Source: Natronorubrum tibetense GA33
GTDB lineage: Archaea > Halobacteriota > Halobacteria > Halobacteriales > Natrialbaceae
Assembly (NCBI RefSeq): GCF_000383975.1
Contig: NZ_KB913017.1
Span: 1,841,105 to 1,905,104, forward strand
Direction of reading: 5' to 3'
Length of the DNA: 64,000 bases
The position numbers and the translations under genes were made by a program. Below are positions 22,199-56,973 of the stretch, piece by piece (the first letter of the stretch is position 1; each line of letters opens with the position of its first letter). The notes beneath the pieces were generated by a model. It saw only the letters and a list, made by a program, of their open reading frames with translations, made no database searches and was not told the DNA's origin.

Positions 22199-22320
22199 GT
22201 CGTTTCGCTCACTTCGTTCGCTTCACTCCCTAATTCAAATCCCTAGTGACCGTCTTTTCCGCTCACGGATGACGAGCACACGCTACGCGATGCTCGTCGA
22301 AATAGTTCGCGGAAGAAGAC

Positions 22321-22392
22321 GCCCGGAGCGGGATTTGAACCCGCGTCACGACCGTGACAGGGTCGTATGATGGGCCACTACACCATCCGGGC
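22321..22392 (-). tRNA. tRNA-Asp (GTC), copy 1
   Basis: On the minus strand the gene starts GCCCGGA, has the D-arm region GGTGTAGTGG, anticodon loop CCTGTCACG (anticodon GTC), T loop GGTTCAAATCC and ends TCCGGGC. It has no encoded CCA and no intron. A CTTAAGAG TATA-like box lies about 30 bases upstream. It is identical to copy 2. Confidence 0.95.
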
Positions 22393-22654: not shown

Positions 22655-22776
22655 GTCGTTTCGCTCACTTCGTTCGCTTCACTCCCTGATTCAAATCCCT
22701 AGTGATCGTCTTTTCCGTTCACGGATGACGAACACACGCTACGCGGTGCTCGTCGAAATAGTTCGCGGAAGAAGAC

Positions 22777-22848
22777 GCCCGGAGCGGGATTTGAACCCGC
22801 GTCACGACCGTGACAGGGTCGTATGATGGGCCACTACACCATCCGGGC
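22777..22848 (-). tRNA. tRNA-Asp (GTC), copy 2
   Basis: It is the same 72-base sequence as copy 1 with anticodon GTC. It has its own upstream TATA-like CTTAATACC and shares a TTTCCCGGTGA segment with the copy 1 promoter, so both genes look transcribable. Confidence 0.95.
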
Positions 22849-42437: not shown

Positions 42438-42918
42438 GCCACCACGGTTCCGTTTCCTCGATTCCGTTCTTTTTCCCGTTTCACTGTTCCCACGCGCCGC
42501 TGGCTGCTTGTCCTCGAGTCGTTTCGCCCGCCACAGATGGGGGCGTTCGCGTCTCGTCGGACAACCGGACAGCAATACACCGCACGGTCCTCGAACGGGT
42601 TGGGTCGTACGGATTGATCCCTCTCGCGCCTGAAGACGCGGGAATCAGTCCCGACGCGAGCCAGAACGGTGGAATCGAACCATCGTGGCGAGACACTGAC
42701 GACGTACTTGAAGACCGTTCGTCGCCCGACGAATAGTTTCTAGAAACTCCTCTAAAATTTACTCTGCAATCTTATTGATTACCTCCTAGTAGCTGCACTG
42801 AGATTCGCATGCATGAGTGACTATGACAACATATCGAAATTGATATCTTAGTATTTTATTAAAATTCGATTAGTTTGGAAAGTTTTTAAGTACGGAAGGT
42901 AATGGTATCTGCCGGAGT
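42438..42918. other. Gene-free stretch between EF-2 and halolysin
   Basis: These 481 bases have no confident gene. The first part holds the EF-2 terminator (T-tract near 42467). A GCGCCTGAAGACGCG motif near 42627 resembles the tnpB right-end hairpin and may be a decayed transposon end. From 42740 the DNA is AT-rich and carries the halolysin promoter (GTTTTTAAGTA at 42882-42892, about 31 bases before the ATG). A short frame across 42520-42739 lacks family features. Confidence 0.45.
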
Positions 42919-44586
42919 ATGACAGAAGAAAACACACACAAGCTCGACAGACGGTCAGTGTTACAAGCAGCCGGAGCACTCGGTGCCCTGTTCGGCATCA
43001 GTGGCGTCGCATCGGCTACGCCGGGACGCGAACCGGGGCCGAAAAAGAACGAGATCGTCGTCGGTGTCGGGCCGTCGGTTTCGAGTCCGAAGCAAGCTGT
43101 CGACCCCCAGATACCGAACTCTGCGGAGATCGTCCACACCAACGAAACGCTCGGTTACGTGGCCGTCGAGTTCCCCGACAGTGCCGCGGAAACGGCGAAA
43201 ACGAACTTCAAAAAGAACGTTCTCGAGGGCGAGGGCATCGAGTACGCCGAAGACAACGTCACCTTCGAGACGCTCGAGATGGAGGCTCTCGAGAGCGACG
43301 ACGACGCTGCAGGAACGGAAGACGTCGACGCGAGCGTCGTCGACGACCCGCTGTACGACAGCCAGTACGCGCCACAGCAGGTCAACTGTCCCGAAGCCTG
43401 GGAGGAGACGCTGGGTGACTCGGACGTGACGATCTCGATCGTCGACCAGGGGATCCAGTACGATCACGAGAACCTCGCGGAGAACATGGACGACAGCGTC
43501 TCGAACTACGGCTACGACTTCGTCGATGGGAACGACGATCCCTACCCCGTTAGCGCCGGCGAGGACCACGGGACGCACGTGGGCGGTATCGCAGCCGGCG
43601 GTACCGACAACGGCGAGGGACACGCCGGCATCTCGAACTGTTCGATGCTGTCGGCTCGAGCACTGGGCGACGGCGGCGGCGGGTCCCTGACGGATATCGC
43701 CGACGCGATCCAGTGGTCTGCCGACCAGGGTGCCGACGTCATCAACATGTCGCTGGGAGGCGGCGGATACACGGAACTGATGGACGACGCGTGTGCCTAC
43801 GCCCAGAACGAGGGATCGCTGCTCGTCGCTGCGGCTGGCAACGACTCCGGTGGGAGCGTCTCGTACCCGGCCGCCTACGACGCGGTCGTGGCCGTGTCGT
43901 CGCTGGACGAAGGCGAAACCCTGTCGTCGTTCTCGAACGTCGGGCCGGAGATCGAACTGGCCGCTCCCGGGGGCGACGTTCTGTCGACGGTCAACTGGGA
44001 CGATTACGACTCGTATTCGGGGACGTCGATGGCGTCACCCGTCGCCGCGGGCGTTGCGGGCCTCGCACTCTCGGCGTGGCCGTCGCTCTCGAACGAGGAA
44101 CTTCGAAGTCACCTCCACGAAACGGCCGTCGACATCGGTCTCTCGGGCGATGAACAGGGATACGGCCGCGTGGATGCGGGCAACGCAGTAACGACGGAGC
44201 CGGGAACAGATCCGGATCCTGATCCTGATCCAGATCCCGACCCGGGCGAGTGCGGCGACGAAGAAAACACTGTCAGCGCCGAGGGATCACTCAGCGACGG
44301 CTGGTGGGGCAACCCGAGCGACAGCTACAGCTACGAACTCGAGACGGAGAACCCGTGTAGCGCTACCGTGACGCTGGAGGGGCCCTCGGACGCGACGTTC
44401 GATCTGTACCTGACCCTCGATGGGCGCCAGCCATCGACCAGCGACTACGACGAGGCGTCGGCCGACTGGGGCGCCGACGAGGAGATCGAAGTCGACCTCG
44501 ACGGCGACGAGGAGTTCGGCATCCTGGTCGATCGGTACAGTGGGAGCGGATCCTACACGATCACGGTCGAAGAACTCGGAAATTGA
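42919..44586 (+). CDS. Halolysin-type subtilisin-like serine protease (S8), Tat-exported
   Basis: This 555-residue secreted protease has a Tat signal ([19 protein letters not shown]), an I9-type prodomain (to about residue 135) and an S8 catalytic domain. The catalytic Asp is in [13 protein letters not shown], His in [13 protein letters not shown] and Ser in [11 protein letters not shown]; the oxyanion Asn is in AAAGND. A linker with repeated Asp-Pro (about 430-442) leads to a C-terminal PPC-like beta domain. The protein should act outside the cell. A tnpB element abuts its 3' end and supplies the TGA stop, so the original C-terminus may have been a few residues different. Confidence 0.92.
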
Positions 44587-44720
44587 CATCCTCACCCGCC
44601 TGAAGACGGGTGAATCCCAAGCGTTGGGATATTAGGGTTTGCAGTCTCCCTGCTCTCTCGGTGTGAACCGTCCGCTCTCGCGGTCGAACAGGAACACTCT
44701 GGGCTGTGCCAACCAGCCGT
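44583..44720 (-). ncRNA. Predicted omega-RNA of tnpB element 1
   Basis: In TnpB systems the guide RNA is made from the end of tnpB plus the right end, with the guide taken from flanking DNA. Here the scaffold would cover the conserved CCCAACGCTTGGG and CACCCG hairpins. The guide would begin at 44582 and read TTTCCGAGTTCTTCGACCGT, antisense to the halolysin 3' end. The 5' limit is not visible in sequence. Confidence 0.5.
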
Positions 44721-45888
44721 TACTCATATCCCCCGTCGGGGGACTCTGGGTTATCTTTCTGCGAATATTCACTGCACCATTCACGTCTGCGTTCATCGTC
44801 GTTCCGCACGACTCACAGACGTACAGCCCGCGCTCCACACGGTTGCTGTCCCGAATCTGCCCACAACACGAACACGTCTTACTCGTGTTCGCTTCGTCAA
44901 CGCGATCGACGAGGATGCCGTGTTCCTCGGCTTTGTATTCGAGCAGGTTCGTGAACCGGTCGAACTCCCATCCGTGCAACTTCTTGTTGCCAGATTGCCC
45001 CCAGTTCCGCGAGTCGGCGTTCTCGTCTTCGCGGATCTCGCTGAGGTCGCCAACCGCTATTTTCTCCACGCCTTCTTCGACACACCGTTGGACGATGTGT
45101 TTTGAGAGCGTGTGGAGAAAGTGGTCTTTGCGCCGGGAAAGTTTCTGCCGGGCCTTCAACGCACGCTTCGACGGGCCGTTCTCGCCTTCAGTCTGATACT
45201 CGTCGCGGGTGAAGTAGTGTTTGTCTTCTTTCAGCGTGTTCCCCGGATACAACTCTGAAGACCCGTCCTCGTAGTCGATTGCGAGGTAGTTACTAATTCC
45301 GAGGTCGATGCCCGCCGTGTTGTTGCCGGGGGCGTCTTCGACTGCAATCTGTTTCTTGCAGACGAGGTGAAGTTCCCACTCGTCTCCGTTCCAGACGGCA
45401 CGCACTTGCTGGATGTTCTCGACTTCTACATCGGGCCGAGTTTCGTATTCGGCAAGGATGAAGTCCGACCGTCCGTCTTTCAGATTCCAGCCTTTCGAAA
45501 GGCGAAGCTGACCGTGTTTGTCGTCGTGTTTGATACCCTTCTGTTTCCACGTCACGGTGGAGCGTGGGTGTCGGTCGCCACGTTTCCGGTAGCCCGGTGG
45601 GTTGTTACCATCGTCGGAGTTGTACCAGCCAGTGAACGCCTCAGCAAGTTCTTCAAGAACTCGCTGACTTGACTGAGAATGCAGGTCACTGTAGCGCTCG
45701 TGGTCTTTCAACTCAGATTTCATCTCGGCTTCGTCGGGTATCTCACCGTCCTCATCCCACCGGCCTTGGATGTAGTAGCGTCCAACATTCCACAGTTTGG
45801 ATGCTGCGAACCCGCACTGGTCGAGGTCGTCACGAACTTGACTGTAGTTCGTGATGCGTGCGACGTAGGTGCGGGTTGTCTCCAACAT
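44632..45888 (-). CDS. tnpB: RNA-guided endonuclease TnpB 1
   Basis: This 418-residue TnpB has a RuvC-like nuclease: Asp195 in GIDLGISN, a RuvC-II motif VGDLSEIRED near 280-288, Asp368 in MNADVNGAVNI and a zinc ribbon CSCC...CESC (339-342, 358-361). The RuvC-II Glu that usually precedes the Asp-Leu is Gly here, so a shifted Glu (Glu284, or one in IRED) may take its place. TnpB cuts DNA matching the omega-RNA guide and helps the element persist. The gene looks full length and intact. Confidence 0.85.
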   Translation of the reverse strand: MLETTRTYVARITNYSQVRDDLDQCGFAASKLWNVGRYYIQGRWDEDGEIPDEAEMKSELKDHERYSDLHSQSSQRVLEELAEAFTGWYNSDDGNNPPGYRKRGDRHPRSTVTWKQKGIKHDDKHGQLRLSKGWNLKDGRSDFILAEYETRPDVEVENIQQVRAVWNGDEWELHLVCKKQIAVEDAPGNNTAGIDLGISNYLAIDYEDGSSELYPGNTLKEDKHYFTRDEYQTEGENGPSKRALKARQKLSRRKDHFLHTLSKHIVQRCVEEGVEKIAVGDLSEIREDENADSRNWGQSGNKKLHGWEFDRFTNLLEYKAEEHGILVDRVDEANTSKTCSCCGQIRDSNRVERGLYVCESCGTTMNADVNGAVNIRRKITQSPPTGDMSNGWLAQPRVFLFDRESGRFTPREQGDCKP

Positions 45889-46120
45889 CGTACTGTCTTC
45901 ATAACCAGTTATGGAATAAAGTATATTAAAGAATATGTTTGACGTGGAATATTCCAGCCTTGTCTGAGTCGGTGGAACGTATCACTGAGTGACGGCGCGT
46001 ATCCACGGCCTGAAGACCGAGGTATTGCGCCTGTTCAGCGTATAACCCGAACAGCCACAGGATCAAATCGCTTTTTTCGCCGGTAGGAACGGCCGAAACG
46101 ACGCACGAGGGACGTGGCTG

Positions 46121-54012: not shown

Positions 54013-54342
54013 GCTGCCGTCGGTGGGCGGTCGACGATCTCCTCGGTCGCGACCGATCGTGACCGCTTCGGTCGGAAACGAGCGACGACCGATTCGCGGC
54101 CGGCATCTCGAGACGCCAGTTTAGGGACGTCCCGTCCCCGTTTCCCCGTCGTTCGACCCCGAACCCGTGCTCGAGACCGGTTCGGTCTCCGCGTGTTACG
54201 GAGAATCAAGGAGAAAGCCCCGCCCTTTAGGGCGGGGATGAATCCGACATAACCCTTCACAACCTACTGACGATAGTGTGACTGGATATTCCACGCTGCG
54301 TCAATACACACCTTCAAGTAGGTTTGTCTACATAGGTTATGT
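54013..54342. other. CDF 3' flank and left end of tnpB element 2
   Basis: These 330 bases without a gene hold the CDF 3' flank (54013-54212) and the left end of element 2. The latter has a perfect hairpin CCCCGCCC/GGGCGGGG at 54218-54237, a shared CTGGATATTCCACG segment near 54281 and a TATA-like element before tnpB. Confidence 0.55.
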
Positions 54343-55623
54343 ATGGCGAAAAAGGTCGTCACCCGCACTTACACTGCTTCCATTCGGAATCAGTCACGGG
54401 TGTCTGATGACCTCGATTCGCTCGGGTTCGCAGCCTCGAAGCTGTGGAACGTCGGACGGTGGACGTGTGGCCGTGTGTGGTCGGAAATCGGCCATATACC
54501 CGGTCACGCCGAACTCACCGCGTACCTGAAGTCGCACGAACGCTACGATGACCTGCATTCTCAGTCAAGTCAGCGAGTCCTCCAAGAACTCGCTGAGGCG
54601 TTCAACGGCTGGTACGGCAAACGACGCAACGGAGACACGAGAGCGAACCCGCCCGGCTACCGCAAACACGGCGACGAACACCCGCGTTCGACGGTCACCT
54701 TCAAAGCTGCTGGCTTCAAACTCGACACCCAGTACAACCGTGTCCGACTCTCCAAAGGGTCGAATCTCAAGGGGTATTGGTCGGATTTCATCCTCTGTGA
54801 GTACCAGACTCGACCCGACGTTGACCTCTCCACCGTGGAGAACGTCCAACAAGTACGGGCCGTCTGGACAGGTGAGGAGTGGGAACTACAGTTCGTCTGT
54901 AAAGTCGAGATCGACGTGGCTGAAACGCCCGGTGAGAAAACCGTGGGTGTTGATCTCGGTATCAACAACTTCGCCGCGCTCGCCTACGAAGATGGCCACA
55001 GCGAGTTGTACCCGCTCAACTGCTTGAAGCAGGACGACTACTACTTCAGCAAACGACTCGCCCAGTGTGACGACTCGGATTCCGAGCAGGCCACGCGACT
55101 GAACCAAAAGAAGTCTGCTCGCCGCACTCACTACTTCCATGTACTCTCCAAGCACATCGTCCGGCGGTGTGTTGATGAAGGCGTTGGAACCATCGTAGTT
55201 GGTGACCTCTCCGGCATCCGTGAGGACGAGGAGAACGATGAGTCAAAAAACTGGGGGAAACACGGTAATCTCGACTTGCATTCGTGGGCGTTCGACCGCT
55301 TCACTGACCTGCTCGAATACAAAGCCGAGATGGGAGGAATCGCCGTCGAAGAAGTGTCCGAGCGAGACACGTCGAAGTCGTGTTCGTGTTGTGACCGCAA
55401 GCGGGATGCAAACCGTGTCGAACGTGGGTTGTACGTGTGCGACAGCTGTGGGACGGTAGCGAACGCGGACGTGAACGGTGCTGAGAACATTCGGCAAAAA
55501 GTATCTCCGAGTTCACCGACTCTCTCGGTGAATAGGAGTAACGGCTGGTTGGCACAGCCATCGACGTACCTGTTTGACAAGGAAACTGGCGCATTCGCGC
55601 CTCAAGAACGGGCCATGTCGTAA
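54343..55623 (+). CDS. tnpB: RNA-guided endonuclease TnpB 2
   Basis: This 426-residue TnpB is closely similar to TnpB 1: Asp204 in GVDLGINN, RuvC-II region VVGDLSGIREDEE, a zinc ribbon CSCC...CDSC and ANADVNGAENI near the end. The RuvC-II motif has Gly before Asp-Leu and no Glu at the DLSEI position, so the second metal ligand must come from the IREDEE run if the nuclease is active. The start fits ATG with a TATA-like region upstream. It is full length. Confidence 0.85.
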   Translation: MAKKVVTRTYTASIRNQSRVSDDLDSLGFAASKLWNVGRWTCGRVWSEIGHIPGHAELTAYLKSHERYDDLHSQSSQRVLQELAEAFNGWYGKRRNGDTRANPPGYRKHGDEHPRSTVTFKAAGFKLDTQYNRVRLSKGSNLKGYWSDFILCEYQTRPDVDLSTVENVQQVRAVWTGEEWELQFVCKVEIDVAETPGEKTVGVDLGINNFAALAYEDGHSELYPLNCLKQDDYYFSKRLAQCDDSDSEQATRLNQKKSARRTHYFHVLSKHIVRRCVDEGVGTIVVGDLSGIREDEENDESKNWGKHGNLDLHSWAFDRFTDLLEYKAEMGGIAVEEVSERDTSKSCSCCDRKRDANRVERGLYVCDSCGTVANADVNGAENIRQKVSPSSPTLSVNRSNGWLAQPSTYLFDKETGAFAPQERAMS

Positions 55624-55681
55624 ACCACAATATCCCAACGCGGTCGGGAATCCTCGCCCTTCAGGGCGGGGAGGATGTCAA
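55560..55681 (+). ncRNA. Predicted omega-RNA of tnpB element 2
   Basis: The tnpB 3' end plus right end should form the scaffold, including the CCTCGCCC/GGGCGGGG hairpin. The predicted guide starts at 55682, GCTGTTGCCGTCTCCGACAC, which is antisense to the 3' end of the kinase coding strand. The 5' end is not defined by sequence alone. Confidence 0.5.
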
Positions 55682-56847
55682 GCTGTTGCCGTCTCCGACA
55701 CGTCTTCGTCCGTACCCGGAGTGCGTGCCGCTTCTCGATCGGTATCGTCCGGATCGTGCGCTCGAGGCAGTGTGACGGTGAACACGCTCCCGTCGGGTCC
55801 GGTCTCCGTCAGTTCGACGGCTCCGCCGTATCGGTGCACCAGGATCCGGACGAGATACAGCCCCAACCCGTGGTTCTCCGACTTTCGCTCGAACAGCGTC
55901 TCGCGCGTTTCGGGCGGAATACCCGGCCCATCGTCCGCGATTTCGACGGCCACCGTCTCGGGCCGTGTTGCGACGGTTGCCGCGACCCGCGGCGGCTCGC
56001 TGTCGTTGTGCTCGACGGCGTTCTCGAGTACGTTCGCGAAGACCCATCTGACCCCCTCGTTTCCCTCGACGAACACGTCGTCAGGGATGTCGGCGTCGAT
56101 CTCGAGTTCCTCGGCCCGATCGTCGAGCGCCGTCAGTTCGGACTCCAGCAGGTCGCCGAGATCGATCGTCCCGGTTACCACCGGCTTCCGACTCGCGTTC
56201 AACATCGCCCGGACGTCGTCGATCACGTCGGTGAGCGCATCGCTTTCGCGATCGATCGTCTCGAGGTGGGTTCGCGATCGGTCGTCGGCGTCCTCGAGGA
56301 GCAACGAGGCGTGGCCGCCGATGATCTGGGCGCTGTTCAGCACCTCGTGTCGCAGGAGGTCGTTCAGGTAGGTGAGAACCTCCCGTTCCTCCGCCAGTCG
56401 CTCGGCGCGAACGGTGGCCGCCGTCGCCTCGACCTCGCGCTGGATCGCTCGGGCTTCGACGTAGCCGACGGTGAGTCCGGCCACGGCGCCCACGTTCAGC
56501 GAGAACTGCGCCCAGGAGACGTTACCGGAGGTCGAGTGCCAGGGAAAGAAGATCATTATGAGGCCGTTGACTGCCAGAAAGCCGACTCCGCAGCCGAAAC
56601 ACCACTGGGCGAGACGACGGTAGCGGTCGACGCCGATCGTGCTCCGCTCGAGTCGATAGCCGCCCCAGACCAGGCCGAGCGCGGGGATGCCGACCGTCGT
56701 GAACCCGAGGACGACGGCCGTCGCGTCGAGCACTGACGCGAACCAGAGACTCCACCCGAGAAAGAAAGCGAACGAGAGCGCGCCGAGGCCGCCGACGAGC
56801 CAGGGAACTGTCGCGTCGGTCGGTCGCCGAACAGCGGCGCGGCTCAT
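55678..56847 (-). CDS. Membrane-bound sensor histidine kinase
   Basis: This 389-residue kinase has five or six N-terminal membrane helices (about 15-150) and a short coiled coil. The phosphoacceptor region YLNDLLRHEVLNSAQIIGG has the H-box His. The HATPase domain has VLENAVEH (N box), IADDGPGIPP (G1) and ENHGLGLYLV (G2). It would autophosphorylate in response to a membrane or cytoplasmic signal and pass phosphate to an unlinked receiver. The start MSRAAVRRPTDATVP at 56847 is chosen over a longer frame. Its TGA stop lies inside the end of tnpB element 2. Confidence 0.88.
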   Translation of the reverse strand: MSRAAVRRPTDATVPWLVGGLGALSFAFFLGWSLWFASVLDATAVVLGFTTVGIPALGLVWGGYRLERSTIGVDRYRRLAQWCFGCGVGFLAVNGLIMIFFPWHSTSGNVSWAQFSLNVGAVAGLTVGYVEARAIQREVEATAATVRAERLAEEREVLTYLNDLLRHEVLNSAQIIGGHASLLLEDADDRSRTHLETIDRESDALTDVIDDVRAMLNASRKPVVTGTIDLGDLLESELTALDDRAEELEIDADIPDDVFVEGNEGVRWVFANVLENAVEHNDSEPPRVAATVATRPETVAVEIADDGPGIPPETRETLFERKSENHGLGLYLVRILVHRYGGAVELTETGPDGSVFTVTLPRAHDPDDTDREAARTPGTDEDVSETATA

Positions 56848-56973
56848 GGTAGTCTCGTCGATGCCGACGCGGTGTGCTCCCCCATACAGGGTAGCAACGG
56901 ACTCCCGTGGTAATGGGTGTAACGGCCACGGTCGACGCCGGGTCCGGCAGTCGTCCATTCGGCCGCGACGCCA

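Follow-up and report, generated by a model that had tools for sequence, protein, structure and literature searches.

The right end of a tnpB-only element of the IS200/IS605 family supplies the stop codon of a histidine kinase gene in Natronorubrum tibetense GA33, and the excess of haloarchaeal insertions of this kind at exact stop codons is about eightfold over the expectation from the target sequence alone (143 insertions). Read in antisense, the two cleavage sites of these elements probably serve as interchangeable stops, and insertions at stops, being harmless, probably survive preferentially. The window is the whole 64,000-nt stretch of DNA that was analysed. Its features at the two junctions between element and host gene are provided in Table 1.

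Table 1. Features of the two elements and their host genes, in window coordinates.
Feature	Position	Strand	Evidence or detail
Element 2	54200..55681	+	1482 bp, IS608-like, tnpB-only (IS1341-type), IS200/IS605 family
TTAC target 5' of element 2	54196..54199	+	Sequence; boundary from aligned copies; rebuilt empty site
Left-end guide AAAG (54214-54217) and hairpin CCCCGCCC-TTTA-GGGCGGGG	54214..54237	+	Sequence
tnpB of element 2, 426 aa	54343..55623	+	OrfB_IS605 1.8e-22, Cas12f1-like_TNB 6e-20
sot0042 / omega-RNA scaffold	55499..55672	+	Rfam RF02656, 187.1 bits, cut-off 88
Right-end guide GAAT (55648-55651) and hairpin CCTCGCCC-TTCA-GGGCGGGG	55648..55671	+	Sequence
Right cleavage site TCAA, final bases of element 2	55678..55681	+	Sequence; boundary conserved in dozens of copies
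Flank predicted to be copied as omega-RNA guide, antisense to last kinase codons	55682..55701	+	Inferred from TnpB biology (PMC8612924)
Host gene of element 2, archaeal 4TM histidine kinase	55678..56847	-	TGA from element 2; upstream start at 56958 possible
Element 1, related tnpB-only element	44583..46041	-	Target TTAT at 46045-46042
tnpB of element 1, 418 aa	44632..45888	-	Cas12f1-like_TNB 1.5e-24, OrfB_IS605 3.5e-20
Host gene of element 1, subtilase	42958..44586	+	Peptidase_S8 5.8e-59; TGA 44584-44586 from element 1

The 11-mer GAGGATGTCAA at 55671-55681 (+) overlaps the TGA of the kinase (55680-55678, minus strand), and the complement of the terminal TCAA reads as T, in the wobble position of the last codon, followed by that TGA. 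The pre-insertion TTAC is antisense to GTAA of the kinase gene, i.e., the wobble base of the last codon plus a TAA stop, and the end of the gene reads ...ACA GCG TAA in the rebuilt empty site and ...ACA GCT TGA at present. TTAC and TCAA have the complements G-TAA and T-TGA, so an insertion antisense to an in-frame TAA exchanges this stop for TGA without a shift of frame. The overlap and the rebuilt in-frame TAA both agree with the claim of the earlier note that the terminus of element 2 supplies the kinase TGA. The kinase was recognised by HATPase_c (9.7e-20) and HisKA_4TM (1.4e-8) domains; the tail varies too much among orthologs, even within the genus, for homology to confirm its native stop.

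At the subtilase gene, the 11-mer is found again at 44593-44583 (-), where it supplies the TGA, and the gene end is GGA AAA TAA when rebuilt and GGA AAT TGA as present. Two subtilase orthologs from the same genus (87% and 82% identical) carry no insertion there and show the native end, ELGK-TAA, while the window protein ends in ELGN-TGA.

Only two exact copies of GAGGATGTCAA occur in the window, both at stops, and four matches were found when up to one mismatch was allowed (0.92 expected by chance). The earlier note had placed all three element ends of the window at or within a few bases of host stop codons, which holds for the two right ends only. The left ends lie downstream of genes running in the same direction, about 80 nt (element 1) and 187 nt (element 2) beyond their stops. 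A right-end-like scrap (approximate coordinates 42614-42660, minus strand) is ~177 nt away from the closest facing stop. The scrap, GATTCCCGCGTCTTCAGGCGCGAGAGGGATCAA, has no attached element and adjoins the subtilase gene. Elsewhere in the window, two tRNA genes with equal Rfam scores are located ~380 bp apart at 22320-22392 and 22776-22848 (-).

Element 2 was compared with known systems. In IS608 (Helicobacter pylori, IS200/IS605), the cleavage sites CL and CR are TTAC and TCAA, the guides GL and GR are AAAG and GAAT, and the hairpins are subterminal (PMC5934647). The same cleavage sites (left flank and right tip), which dozens of aligned copies conserve, and the same guides, each 5' of a subterminal hairpin, are present in element 2. 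Neither terminal inverted repeats nor a target duplication were seen in element 2, and its joined flanks form an uninterrupted host gene end, in agreement with the subtilase orthologs. Unlike IS608, element 2 is haloarchaeal and has no tnpA within it (142 bp separate the left tip from tnpB), and replacement of a stop codon is not described in the sections consulted on IS608 (PMC5934647). At the sequence level, element 2 belongs with TnpB/OMEGA systems, having both TnpB domains and an RNA at the 3' end of tnpB; the RF02656 match spans the tnpB 3' end and the right end of the element. IS1341-type elements with sotRNA/omega-RNA have expanded in haloarchaea and, like element 2, are tnpB-only with sot0042 over the tnpB 3' end; their position relative to stop codons is not reported in the available sections of that study (PMC3119063).

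For TnpB of ISDra2, an RNA from the 3' end of the element carries a guide of about 16 nt from the adjoining DNA, and cutting of empty sites has been proposed to serve retention (PMC8612924). Element 2 shares the TnpB domains and, judged from its sequence, the 3'-end RNA with a guide from neighbouring DNA, whereas the target of ISDra2 is TTGAT, unlike the TTAC of element 2. IStrons, in which a group I intron is joined to an IS, likewise insert without harm to the host, and many begin with a stop codon; however, they become harmless through RNA splicing and lie mostly inside genes, whereas element 2 is intronless and the gene end is re-made (PMC4227781). An Rfam scan of the window at gathering thresholds matched no group I intron, the part that would make element 2 an IStron. 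End fragments of IS605B at Borrelia lipoprotein genes also place IS605-type ends at or over gene 3' ends, but they are tied to one gene group, and the portion of the report available describes neither in-frame stop replacement nor a survey (PMC2775950). A stop-codon preference of TnpB elements was not found in the open-access papers searched; subscription journals mostly fell outside this coverage, which makes the novelty provisional.

For the survey, the main set had two sources, 80 loci that encode close relatives of TnpB and 60 sot0042 loci within the family; insertions with both ends present were kept, and duplicates by identical right flank were dropped. The replication set was collected across the order with a right-end DNA pattern and comprised families other than that of the window; it omits 37 right ends for which no left end was recognised. 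In total, 143 unique intact haloarchaeal insertions were retained, with elements 1 and 2 of the window left out of the statistics. Insertions were counted as independent once identical right flanks had been removed; they come from many genera, and a few may share ancestry. Empty sites were rebuilt, and genes were called using a home-made codon-usage caller, applied equally to insertions and controls. All remaining TTAC (or TTAT) sites on either strand of the same flanks served as controls.

In this survey of stop position against expectation, which the earlier note had proposed as its test and which did not refute it, exact convergent in-frame TAA codons were enriched, being found at 39/143 insertions (27%) and 69/2016 control tetranucleotides (3.4%) of the combined set. 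At TTAC targets, exact stops were found in 27/81 insertions of the main set (47/1096 controls) and in 8/43 of the replication set (18/687 controls, p=5e-5, other families); for TTAT in the replication set, the counts were 2/13 and 3/156. When only non-disruptive sites were compared, the ratio was 39:82 for insertions and 69:1003 for controls (OR 6.9, p=8e-15), with the intergenic controls inflated because the gene caller misses some atypical genes, such as transposase-like ORFs in the window. Between convergent genes, the ratios were 21:9 and 28:120 (OR 10), and in convergent spacers of <=400 nt, the comparison least exposed to missed genes, they were 18:4 and 21:35 (OR 7.5). A per-locus test gave 39 observed exact stops vs 9.8 expected from all sites and 20.7 expected from non-disruptive sites. 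Avoidance of promoters was rejected as the whole cause since the effect is at least as large between convergent genes, where there is no promoter.

The change of the last codon at exact sites is synonymous in 23/39 cases, and one terminal residue is altered in the remainder. The host genes are unrelated, no homology having been found among 29 host proteins, and include core genes (serine hydroxymethyltransferase, DNA topoisomerase I, prephenate dehydratase, and ETF alpha). This lack of homology and the unconserved kinase tail led to the rejection of homing to a single conserved family. The stop overlaps would hardly be credible as coincidence or a gene-calling artefact. Within this genome, only 2 of the 13 sot0042-carrying copies overlap a stop, namely elements 1 and 2, as coincidence would allow, but their empty sites have an in-frame TAA at the same codon, the subtilase orthologs end there, and the enrichment was replicated across the surveyed insertions with controls passed through the same caller. 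Pfam matches in 18/20 tested host proteins also speak against an artefact.

Of the lone right ends of the replication set, 3/37 supply a stop, a lower share than the 39/143 of intact insertions (p=0.015), as if the stop-codon insertions were younger or better preserved than the others. At L104 and L145 (L112), tandem left ends, each with its own target tetranucleotide, lie beside tnpB, which suggests nested or repeated insertion.

Survival through harmlessness would operate as follows. The element inserts 3' of TTAC, sometimes TTAT, and where this sequence is complementary to an in-frame TAA after G (or A), the TAA is moved to the far side of the element. The last bases of the element, TCAA, then give a TGA in the identical frame, and the last codon changes at its wobble base only, to T. 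The host protein is retained, so that insertions at stops would survive while other insertions would be purged. The earlier note had offered a stop provided by the terminus as what makes such insertions harmless, and this is well supported by the same-frame change of TAA to TGA, the TAA of the orthologs of one host, the core genes among the hosts, and a replicated enrichment of ~7-fold over other non-disruptive target sites. In-gene insertions are depleted (22/143 vs 944/2016 controls), and sites directly past gene ends are mildly preferred, which fits the purging of harmful insertions with gene ends as safe sites. From the positions of the insertions, we infer that preferential survival of harmless insertions mainly accounts for the excess.

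At exact stops, 39 insertions compare with 69 control sites, and at convergent 3'-UTR sites 1-100 nt away, 9 compare with 79; harmlessness alone does not obviously explain this several-fold excess over nearby sites. The low share of stop overlaps in this genome (2/13 copies) and the variable kinase tail also weigh against the reading. A bias of targeting, in which the transposase would prefer TTAC in a gene-end context (GC-rich flanks or an exposed single-stranded state), is a doubtful cause. The left flanks of occupied sites are indeed richer in GC (coefficient 3.67, se 0.87), and IS608 is known to prefer C at +1 in addition to TTAC (PMC5934647), but the OR is still 4.9 after adjustment for GC, or 9.8 between convergent genes, no clear base preference was seen around exact sites, and 3'-UTR sites in the same orientation are less favoured than exact stops. 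A preference for GC-rich flanks was therefore rejected as the whole cause, as GC explains part of the effect and not most of it.

The earlier note had also raised antisense control of the host gene by the omega-RNA. Elements would then be kept facing gene tails because this RNA, or a read-through transcript, regulates the host gene. By geometry, an RNA leaving the right end would run antisense to the final host codons, yet antisense RNA does not require an exact in-frame overlap, and the hosts are functionally unrelated. Moreover, the right neighbour is convergent in 29/78 non-exact intergenic insertions and 363/876 controls, and this lack of a tail-to-tail excess outside the exact stop is evidence against antisense control, which was dropped as the main cause and appears very improbable.

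Relatives of ~370 bp that lack tnpB and keep both ends share the preference, with exact stops in 7/34 insertions vs 3/326 controls. An intact tnpB in cis is thus not needed, and dependence on it was rejected. This family (L343, with the element at about 1501-1867, L346, L348, L353, L357, L358, L371, and others) has IS608-like ends and occurs in many haloarchaeal genera. At L343, the one locus tested, a sot0042-like RNA scored 73.6 bits and so fell short of the curated cut-off (88), and none of seven tnpB-less loci had sot0042 above that cut-off (0/7). The family members resemble elements reduced to the omega-RNA, for which TnpB could be provided in trans. Because the sot0042-like RNA is kept, they cannot separate the action of TnpB in trans from targeting.

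A role of the guide itself is rather unlikely, if somewhat less so than a bias of targeting. A guide at an exact stop is, by geometry, antisense to the last codons of the gene; it would copy coding sequence while leaving the gene undisrupted, the empty site would be constrained, and cutting by TnpB would keep or spread the insertions. This would account for the preference for exact stops over 3'-UTR sites, and retention of a sot0042-like RNA by stop-preferring tnpB-less relatives is expected if TnpB acts in trans. Against it, no target recurs among the unrelated host genes, and the part of the kinase tail that the predicted guide copies is unconserved even within the genus. Active retention at, or drive to, stops of haloarchaeal TnpB elements and of their relatives that carry the RNA without tnpB is likewise unlikely. 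It would be a harmless form of homing in which stop replacement renders the insertion neutral, the guide copies coding sequence, and the empty site is a constrained gene end.

A transposon encodes the stop and last wobble base of various haloarchaeal genes, core genes among them, which is relevant to their annotation. The location of TnpB elements becomes a quantitative question that bears on guide choice and retention. Survival of harmless stop insertions would make the accumulation of TTAC/TCAA-type IS200/IS605 elements in gene-dense genomes explicable, both cleavage sites being antisense stops in the same frame.
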